From an uncultured Prevotellaceae bacterium (GTDB lineage: Bacteria > Bacteroidota > Bacteroidia > Bacteroidales > Bacteroidaceae): a stretch of DNA of 64,000 nt. The notes beneath the pieces are model-generated. The model saw nothing but the letters and a program-made list of their open reading frames with translations, searched no databases and was not told the origin of the DNA. Position numbers and translations under genes: made by a program. Of this stretch, positions 8,094-41,245 are shown piece after piece; the first letter of the stretch is position 1; every line of letters begins with the position of its first letter. Where the stretch lies: NCBI GenBank assembly GCA_900315095.1, contig OMXS01000015.1, positions 79,018-143,017 of the forward strand, given 5' to 3'.

Positions 8094-8239
8094 AGAAATT
8101 CTTTCTTTTTTTTGCCGAGATGCAGAATTCGAACATGTTTCGCTTGCTCAGAGCAAGAAGTTCGCCATTTTAACGGCAAAGTTTACGGAAAACTGGAAAC
8201 AACGCCGAATTGCGGCATCGTATATTTCCTCGCATGTCA

Positions 8240-9036
8240 ATGAACGCTTTTTCGCCTGTCGGGCGATTGATGCACCTCTCTCGGTGCCGTATGTATACCA
8301 TTGGGCGATGAATGGTATATGTTTGAGGGGGCGGAAGGTATATGTTTCGAGCGCCGGCCGGTATATTATAAGGCGGCGAAAGGTATATGTTTCGGGGAGT
8401 ATGGCCGGGAGCGGTTCGGCATCTCCTCGCGGGAGGCATGGTGGGGGATTTGCTTTTACAAAGTTACAAAATAATTTTCATTTCTCCAAATTTCGCTTGG
8501 CTGAAACTGGCGAAAATCCACCAAGGAACCGCCCTTGAACTCTTAAAAAATATTAAATTTGCGATGACTCACACGATGCCAGTACATTGCGCGATTACGT
8601 ATCGTAGAGTTTCAAGAAAATTGCGAGGCGGAGTGTTACGCTGTTACGGTGTTACAGTTGTCGGAAAGAGTATTCCTATACCCAAATTCCTCTTTATATT
8701 TATATATATTATAATATATATAAATATAAGTATTACTTTTGATTTTTGTGCCATCTTTTTTGGAACTGTAACACTGCAACACTGCAACACATCGTGTGCT
8801 ATTCTGCCGAATTGCACGTTTTACTGGATGAGTGTTTATGTCAAAAATGGTTTGAGTTATGTGCTTCATCCTCTGATTCTTGCTAACTCGCTAACAACAT
8901 GGGAGTTATAAGAAAATTAAAAATATTTAACAATTATACTATGGTTTCTTAACGGATTTTCACAAGTTGCGGATGGGTGTTTTTTGGCAATCTAGAAAAT
9001 ATTTTGTATCTTTGCAATACAAACGTCGGGATGACG
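8240..9036. repeat. Noncoding element, copy A (inverted partner at 40442-41245)
   Basis: About 800 bp with no convincing gene, homologous over its length to the reverse complement of 40442-41245. Left to right: a CGCC-TGTC-GGCG-like hairpin block (8241-8280); four 22-23-bp units beginning GGTATATG (8314, 8337, 8360, 8382; the third degenerate); a CCTCGCGGGAGG hairpin region; a leftward promoter (CAAA at 8487-8490 and CAAAGTTA at 8459-8466, read on the minus strand); the block ACACGATGCCAG...TTGCGCGATTA; iteron-like arms around an A/T palindrome; the block GCTAAC-CGCTAA-GGGAGTTATA; and a rightward promoter TTTG (8983) N20 TATCTTTG (9007-9014) inside the inverted repeat TTTGTAT-N7-ATACAAA. It ends with the hairpin CGTC-GGGAT-GACG. 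A minus-strand reading frame (8439-8170) shares about 85% of residues with the B copy. Confidence 0.85.
8633..8790. repeat. Iteron arms around a 36-bp A/T palindrome (element A)
   Basis: The left arm (8633-8657) is built of GTGTTAC-type units; the right arm (8766-8790) is built of the complementary TGCAACAC/TGTAACAC units, matching at 20 of 25 positions. Between them 8694-8729 is a perfect 36-bp palindrome of A and T only. Confidence 0.85.
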
Positions 9037-9206
9037 CAAAGGGGGCGGAAACTTGCTGGGACAGCGGGGACAATCTGGGGGCGAATAGATTTTGTGGCCA
9101 ATGCGGCCCCTTAAGGCTCTACGTGATTTGTCGAAACAAAAATCATGGTTATTGCAGAAACAATGAAATCTTTTTCTTATCTTTGCAACGAGAAAAACAA
9201 CAGATT

Positions 9207-31757: not shown

Positions 31758-31825
31758 TTTTACCTTAAACTAGAATAATTAATGTTTAAAGGGGAGTGTC
31801 AATTGTGATACCAATTGAGTCTGTC

Positions 31826-31903
31826 GTTCATCCCTACGCCGGCATTACCCGGATCAGGTTTGAGGGTCTAATCTCAGCCCGCCCACGGCGGACACCCCTT
31901 AAC
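31826..31903 (-). promoter_or_regulatory. TPP riboswitch (THI element)
   Basis: On the minus strand the leader contains GGGGTGTCC, GGGCTGAGA, ACCCTCAAACCTGATCC and GGTAATGCCGGCGTAGGGA in the fixed THI-box order, including the strictly conserved CUGAGA and CUGAUC...AUGCCGGCGUAGGGA segments. It represses the downstream receptor and PnuT genes when thiamine pyrophosphate is plentiful. About 70 bases separate it from the receptor ATG. Confidence 0.97.
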
Positions 31904-31924
31904 TTACATTTTGTAAATCGGGTG

Positions 31925-40441: not shown

Positions 40442-41245
40442 CGTCATCCCGACGCTTTTGTATTGCAAAGATACAACACAAAACGCCAAGTGCCAAAAAT
40501 CGGGAGTCTGCAACTTGTAAAAATCTGTTAACAAACCACCTATAATTCGATAAATATTGTTAAATCCCATATAACTCCCACGTTATTAGCAAGTTAGCGA
40601 AGTGTCAAGGAACACACTCCAGTTAGTGAAATCAATCTAGGCATGGATTTACAACATTGTAACATTACAACATTACAACATTAAGGATTTCGATGTAGCA
40701 TGTCAGAGTAAAAATCAGGTCATGGGTCAGAGAATAGGTTACAAATTATAAGTATTATAATTTAATAATAATATATATTATAATATATATTATTATTAAC
40801 CATTGTAGGCAACCCTTCTCTCTGCATGTCTGTAATTTCTTAATGTTGTAATGTTGTAAAGTTGCATTTCTTGAAACGCGACAACGCATAATCGCGCAAC
40901 TCTCTGGCATCGTGTTAGTTATGGCAGATTTTGCAATCTTTAAGAAAGTTGTATTATTTCTTTAACATATTTTTACGAGTTATGGATGCTCGAAATTTCG
41001 CATACTGGAGAAAAAGTTGTATCTTTGTAACAGCAAATCCCCCACCATACCTCCCGCGAGGAGATGCCGAACCGCCCCCGGCCACACTCCTCGAAACATA
41101 TACCATTCGCCGCCCAGTCATATACCGGCCGGCACCCGGAACATATACCTTCCGTCCCCTCAAACATATACCGTTCGCTCCCCAATGGTATACATACGGC
41201 ACCATGAGAGGTGCATCAATCGCCCGACAGGCGAAAAAGCGTTCA
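40442..41245. repeat. Noncoding element, copy B (inverted partner at 8240-9036)
   Basis: Reverse-complement homologue of element A and almost the same length (804 against 797 bp). From left: hairpin CGTC-ATCCC-GACG; leftward promoter (minus strand TTTG at 40494-40497, N20, TATCTTTG at 40466-40473) with the same ATACAAA partner; the GGGAGTTATA/TAGC block (40569-40600); iteron arms and A/T palindrome; CGCGCAA...TGGCATCGTGTTAGT; a rightward TATCTTTG (41020-41027); a CTCCCGCGAGGAG hairpin; CATATACC repeats (41096-41172); and the CGCCCGACAGGCG block. Sequence to its left (40260-40440) is C-rich on the plus strand, and no gene is seen there. To its right, 41246-41424 holds only the terminator of the metal-binding gene. 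A reading frame equivalent to the one in A is open here too (41041-41280) but has ATA where A has ATG. Confidence 0.85.
40648..40860. repeat. Iteron arms around a 38-bp A/T palindrome (element B)
   Basis: Left arm 40648-40685 consists of ACAACATT-type units and right arm 40839-40860 of their complement (21 of 22 bases pair with 40664-40685). Between them 40762-40799 is a perfect 38-bp A/T palindrome. The unit sequence differs completely from that of element A, but the layout is the same. Confidence 0.85.

Follow-up and report, generated by a model that had tools for sequence, protein, structure and literature searches.

Two inverted, hairpin-centered loci in a Prevotella genome as candidate copies of a mobile promoter cassette

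Two loci that lie in inverted orientation within a 64,000-nucleotide stretch of a Prevotella genome (the window, corresponding to positions 79018-143017 of contig C22 in genome G000) are homologous and share an unusual symmetrical plan. Its putative working part consists of imperfect inverted ends of about 75 bp, each with an outward-facing predicted promoter, that enclose a palindrome and mirrored arrays of a short repeated word. We favor, at about even confidence, the interpretation that the loci are copies of a non-autonomous promoter cassette that spreads by copying and is built on a DNA hairpin, the arms of which are matched by fold-back template switching. Limited searches of the open-access literature turned up no published description of such an element.

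Results

The segment from 8240 to 9036 on the plus strand is homologous to the reverse complement of 40442-41245, with the parts in a fixed order. When copy 1 was used as the query against its own genome, copy 2 was recovered at 71% identity across bases 33-837 of the 901-base query (E 1.3e-90). The preliminary description had claimed homology along the whole length, and the homology and the order of parts hold, but conservation is uneven, being 0.90 in 8253-8456 and 0.44-0.77 in the six other modules. The genome search placed a third copy, 88% identical to copy 1, at G000:C22:71206-72082, which is 7 kb to the left of the window, and gave a copy number for the composite of three, all on contig C22 and within about 49 kb. 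An orthologue of copy 1 is present in Prevotella sp. UBA4330 (G028), also between typA and a NUDIX gene. The third copy, the orthologue and the further relatives described below speak against the earlier proviso that there might be only these two loci. The copies and their side modules are located as follows.

8240..9036, plus strand: copy 1 of the composite cassette, between typA (minus strand) and a NUDIX gene (plus strand)
40442..41245, minus strand: copy 2, between two convergent genes
8253..8456, no strand assigned: side module with a 23-bp minisatellite (at 8314-8392), identity 0.90 to copy 2 and 0.93 to copy 3
41030..41233, no strand assigned: minisatellite module of copy 2, edges approximate

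Outside the minisatellite module, copies 1 and 2 are less alike, with identities of 0.54 (left promoter region), 0.65 (left spacer), 0.58 (center), 0.44 (stretch to the right of the center), 0.72 (right spacer) and 0.77 (right end); copies 1 and 3 share 0.90-0.98 across all seven modules, and in the UBA4330 copy the minisatellite module is mostly replaced (0.65). Identities this uneven indicate that the composite is an assembly of parts with different histories. The GGTATATG repeats that had been reported were confirmed and form a minisatellite, with a period of 23 bp and 3.5 copies at 8314-8392, and this is a separate module joined on one side. The CTCCTCGCGGGAG motif, described earlier as a CGCGAGG hairpin, is present in both copies as judged by eye alone.

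Some match to the cassette, with few candidates scored per genome, was found in 54 of the 151 genomes of the genus, and long matches were confined to G000 and UBA4330. An exact-pattern search for two minisatellite units hit one of 399 genomes, G000 itself, and the exact pattern of promoter plus CGTC hairpin (CGTCGGGATGACG) hit three of 399, namely G000 (three sites), UBA4330 (one) and G383 (one, outside a TTTGCAATACAAA context). Because long matches and exact patterns are confined to so few genomes, the full composite looks lineage-specific. Contigs of UBA4330 (C20, C25) and of G044 (C14, C31) end at palindromic elements or hold Ns within them, and since the assemblies of relatives break off or are gapped at such sites, metagenome-assembled genomes probably understate the number of element copies.

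The ends of both copies carry promoter-like sites of the Bacteroidetes type, at the following positions.

8459..8490, minus strand: left outward promoter-like site of copy 1, TTTG-N20-TAACTTTG
8983..9014, plus strand: right outward promoter-like site of copy 1, TTTG-N20-TATCTTTG
9024..9036, plus strand: CGTC-GGGAT-GACG inverted repeat of copy 1, just beyond the predicted start
40442..40454, minus strand: CGTC-GGGAT-GACG inverted repeat of copy 2
40466..40497, minus strand: outward promoter-like site of copy 2, TTTG-N20-TATCTTTG
40996..41027, plus strand: other outward promoter-like site of copy 2, TTTC-N20-TATCTTTG

Two features of the preliminary description, a shared CGTC hairpin end and two diverging promoter-like sites with 20-base spacing, were confirmed here: CGTCGGGATGACG is present at 9024-9036 and at 40442-40454, and the spacing is exactly 20 bp at all four ends. 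The promoter-like pattern is TTTG (once TTTC)-N20-TAnnTTTG, and a lenient form of it, written after the ends had been seen, occurs 0.035 times per 900 bp in shuffled copy 1. Outward sites with the exact 20-bp spacing are found at both ends of copies 1-3 and of a related element, C41b. Both ends of the UBA4330 copy also have an outward site, the left one with an altered -7 box, and a site at one end only was found in C37, in a G094 element and in a G044 element, the other end of which lies beyond its contig. The promoter-bearing ends are imperfect inverted repeats of about 75 bp. Copy 2 shows this on both sides: its right end aligns to the left end of C41b (79% over 71 nt, E 2.9e-11), and its left end aligns to the right ends of copies 1 and 3 (70-73% over 74 nt). 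These inverted matches, at 70-79% over 71-74 nt, suggest that the ends are inverted relatives, although they define no sharp termini.

The earlier reading that neither locus holds a recognized gene agrees with a hexamer gene finder, which called none in 40442-41245 and, in 8240-9036, only a TTG extension (from 8967) of the NUDIX ORF. An ATG ACG does sit at the same spot of the end hairpin in both copies, as had been claimed, but the peptides of copies 1, 2 and 3 and of the UBA4330 copy diverge within a few residues, and we rejected a protein from the ATGACG frames on the grounds that the peptides are unrelated between copies. We likewise rejected the minisatellite module as coding sequence, since no frame stays open in the copies and also shows a clear excess of synonymous changes; the best frame has eight synonymous versus nine other codons and contains stops.

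The most unusual part of the cassette, which the preliminary description did not mention, lies at its center (8633-8790 and 40658-40866), where a perfect AT palindrome of 36 bp in copy 1 and 38 bp in copy 2 is positioned between inverted tandem arrays of a word of about 8 bp.

8633..8659, plus strand: left arm of copy 1, a tandem array of TGTTACGG-like words
8694..8729, no strand assigned: perfect AT palindrome of copy 1, 36 bp
8764..8790, plus strand: right arm of copy 1, the left array inverted
40658..40690, minus strand: arm of copy 2, ACAACATT words
40762..40799, no strand assigned: perfect AT palindrome of copy 2, 38 bp
40834..40866, minus strand: opposite arm of copy 2, inverted, 88% complementary over 33 nt

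As single-stranded DNA, the center is predicted to fold into two storeys, an arm stem and a palindrome stem (z -4.9 for copy 1 and -8.4 for copy 2). The exact palindrome core, TATATATTATAATATATA, occurs at 16 sites in G000; with up to two mismatches allowed there are 30 sites versus 44 for a reversed control, which is no excess, and such counts alone are meaningless. Mirrored arms were found by a detector at 13 of the 16 core sites and by alignment at the remaining three (C13, copy 3 and C49), with copy 3 the weakest. The 16 exact-core sites together with C37, C41b and C26b, which have other or looser palindromes, make up a set of 19 elements. In 20 of 20 folded elements, the one from UBA4330 included, the left flank pairs with the right flank (z -2.2 to -12.9), and the weakest predicted folds are those of copy 3 (z -2.7) and C41b (z -2.2). 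The same plan with further words recurs in other species of the genus, at loci found by similarity and thus not a random sample.

Strong predicted stems that are conserved despite sequence change are also what favors a structured RNA, suggested in the preliminary description, in which a transcribed hairpin would have its arms held alike through selection on base pairing. We consider this improbable and transcription of the hairpin unsupported, given that the promoter-like sites are outside the hairpin and face away from it and that Rfam covariance models gave no match up to E 1 in 8200-9120 and none at gathering scores at 40442-41245. Moreover, some of the mismatches between arms (in C20 and C46, by inspection of the alignment) are A/T transversions, which count against RNA pairing because G-U pairing does not rescue them. 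Elsewhere in the window, an ordinary TPP riboswitch is present on the minus strand at 31814-31909.

Ten repeat words of 7-9 bp occur among the 19 G000 elements, and both arms of each element share its word. The mean match of an arm is 0.86 to its own partner (lowest 0.46), 0.79 to arms of other elements with the same word and 0.22 to arms with another word (highest 0.70). The own arm beats the best arm with another word in 19 of 19 elements, in a comparison for which arms were excised by their own best alignment, a procedure that favors the own match; copies 1 and 3 have lower normalized own-arm matches (0.54 and 0.46). A cross-arm test with 200-nt flanks, in which the own arm came first in 3 of 19 elements and the observed sum was reached by 125 of 20,000 permutations, was set aside as confounded by the core homology that oppositely oriented elements share.

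Three loci (C34, C7 and C41) are common to G000 and UBA4330, with flanking identity of 84-96%, and the word differs between the species at all three. At C34, both arms have GTCAACAA in G000 and both have ATCAACAA/TTCAACAA in UBA4330, where there is one element with Ns in the middle in place of the two tandem elements of G000. At C7 and C41, one UBA4330 arm is readable at each locus and carries a different word (mostly ATCAACAA, and TTTTGTCG). These differences at shared loci point to words that turn over and a plan that persists. C34 is the one locus at which both arms were seen to carry a replaced word, an outcome that selection on pairing, or exchange of the entire element, would equally produce.

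Tandem words of 7-9 bp, one of which (GTCAACAA) is common to 5 of the 19 loci, could also be read as iteron-like sites for word-specific proteins that act on the flanking promoters, making the cassette a DNA-binding platform, another of the possibilities raised in the preliminary description. Gene context bears on this reading in both directions. It was scored with our own hexamer gene finder, among related elements that are not independent. Of 49 AT-palindrome elements, 41 could be scored and 16 of these have divergent neighboring genes; of 29 mirrored arrays that lack a palindrome, 28 could be scored and 1 has divergent neighbors, a difference (p 0.0006) that favors such a platform. Against it, the excess over the background of 16/64 does not reach significance (p 0.14), the neighbors of copy 1 are divergent but those of copy 2 convergent and those of copy 3 in tandem, and ten words in one genome would require many specificities. 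We regard a binding platform as improbable. The same comparison with background led us to reject a cruciform sink between divergent promoters. Three AT-palindrome elements have neighbors of note, as judged by eye: L041 (G138:C52) adjoins an IS200-type (RAYT-like) transposase-like gene with long inverted repeats, and L040 and L047 adjoin short ORFs resembling Rha-type antirepressor genes.

The preliminary description had raised a non-autonomous mobile element, with many copies and sharp common ends as its mark. Dispersal by copying is supported by three copies in about 49 kb, by the lack of copies 2 and 3 in UBA4330 and by relatives elsewhere in the genome, and the ends are related as promoter-bearing inverted repeats, but for the composite we found neither a target duplication nor a clean empty site. 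When the 143-kb contig was compared with syntenic UBA4330 DNA, copies 2 and 3 had no counterpart there; about 350 bp and about 210 bp of other DNA, respectively, occupy their sites and make junctions and duplications unreadable for these two copies. A related element at C26 is absent from UBA4330 and G044. At C32, UBA4330 has a near-empty site, 34 bp versus 303 bp in G000, at which gain and loss look alike. A different repeat of about 140 bp, L214:1380-1518 (G000:C20), has several dozen matches in UBA4330.

A true MITE, the inverted promoter-bearing ends of which are sites for a transposase encoded elsewhere that moves the cassette, would account for inverted ends, for several copies that lack coding capacity, and for presence and absence between species. 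We nevertheless think it unlikely, since the ends are only 70-79% alike where they can be aligned, no target duplication was seen at C32, where the junction is ambiguous, or at the occupied sites of copies 2 and 3, and the composite is limited to three copies on one contig.

Mirrored arrays are not confined to the cassette. The counts were 15 for G000 and 7 for G117 (400 kb each), 10 for G045 and none for G016 (200 kb each), and 7 for UBA4330 (206 kb). These densities are biased, as known hits guided the choice of the G000 contigs, the UBA4330 contig and a single stretch from both G117 and G045. None was found in 50 kb of E. coli or in three shuffles of each sequence. Of the ten G000 genes that scored over the cut-off for PF05635 (23S rRNA intervening-sequence protein), six lie between mirrored arrays, a count made at looser thresholds than the densities and without a shuffle control, and the words of these arrays (L186-L191) are locus-specific. 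A gene-carrying mirrored array in UBA4330 (L169, G028:C35:5646-6069) is absent at the matching G000 site; its gene, named from its sequence, is presumably of the four-helix-bundle/PF05635 kind. The same contig has a second block, about 170 bp long (G028:C35:2181-2348), in which GGAGTTA arrays are mirrored and the outer ends are related; G000 lacks it at a well-aligned site.

Discussion

Our preferred interpretation is that of a copied promoter cassette on a DNA hairpin. The center would fold into the predicted two-storey hairpin when single-stranded, or, in supercoiled DNA, might be extruded as a cruciform. One arm would then be copied onto the other by fold-back template switching, published as a way of making and keeping stems in the account of PMC8794818, such that the arms match while the word changes. 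Presence and absence between species suggests that the cassette spreads within the chromosome by copying, which would place promoters beside its neighbors. If active, they would be directed toward the NUDIX gene in copy 1 and would run antisense into both neighboring genes in copy 2.

More tentatively, the cassette may belong to an undescribed Prevotella class of chromosomal hairpin elements defined by a perfect AT palindrome, mirrored arrays and a locus-specific word of 7-9 bp that is replaced on both arms at once, with the related PF05635 arrays as a possible autonomous form and with some elements, the present ones among them, acting as movable pairs of outward promoters. As part of the same doubtful reading, the class would be self-mirroring DNA, in which the structure is inherited and the sequence is not. 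If true, these elements would be natural, many-copy inverted repeats whose arms change together, the evolution of long stems (by selection on pairing versus arm-to-arm copying) would become testable in bacteria, and rumen and gut bacteria would have an overlooked source of promoters and antisense transcription. The association of PF05635 genes with mirrored arrays could account for the spread of these orphan genes. The PF05635 elements of G000 resemble the cassette in having mirrored arrays with locus-specific words; the cassette differs in having an AT palindrome in the middle and no PF05635 gene, and the own-genome search lists no PF05635 match in contig C22.

Several known systems share some of these features. 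The BrickBuilt MITE of Porphyromonas gingivalis, as described in PMC4596501, is composed of a 23-nt minisatellite, leader and tail parts and small inverted ends, has outward promoters by lacZ tests in E. coli, and is present in 19 copies in ATCC 33277. By that description, the cassette is like BrickBuilt in being an intergenic Bacteroidales repeat with a period-23 minisatellite and outward promoter-like sites, and is unlike it in having an AT palindrome with mirrored arrays and three copies rather than 19. CGTC-tagged REPs, some of them in Bacteroidetes, are described in PMC3733652 as 20-40 bp long and of high copy number, with an unpaired CGTC tag at one end. Like them, the cassette is palindromic intergenic DNA, but its CGTC pairs with GACG in a stem and the element is about 800 bp long; with CGTC paired and the pattern found three times in G000 and once each in UBA4330 and G383, we rejected its assignment to the CGTC REPs. 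Intergenic heptamer direct repeats such as TAACTGA, found also in a few Bacteroidetes, are likewise tandem sets of a short word between genes, yet in the account of PMC4679880 the word is fixed and there is one inverted case, whereas the word of the cassette varies by locus and its arrays are mirrored about a center. Finally, in the template-switch hairpins described in PMC8794818, as in our proposal, stem arms are made alike by copying one from the other; there it is a mechanism of mutation in RNA genes, and here we propose it for a dispersed DNA cassette.
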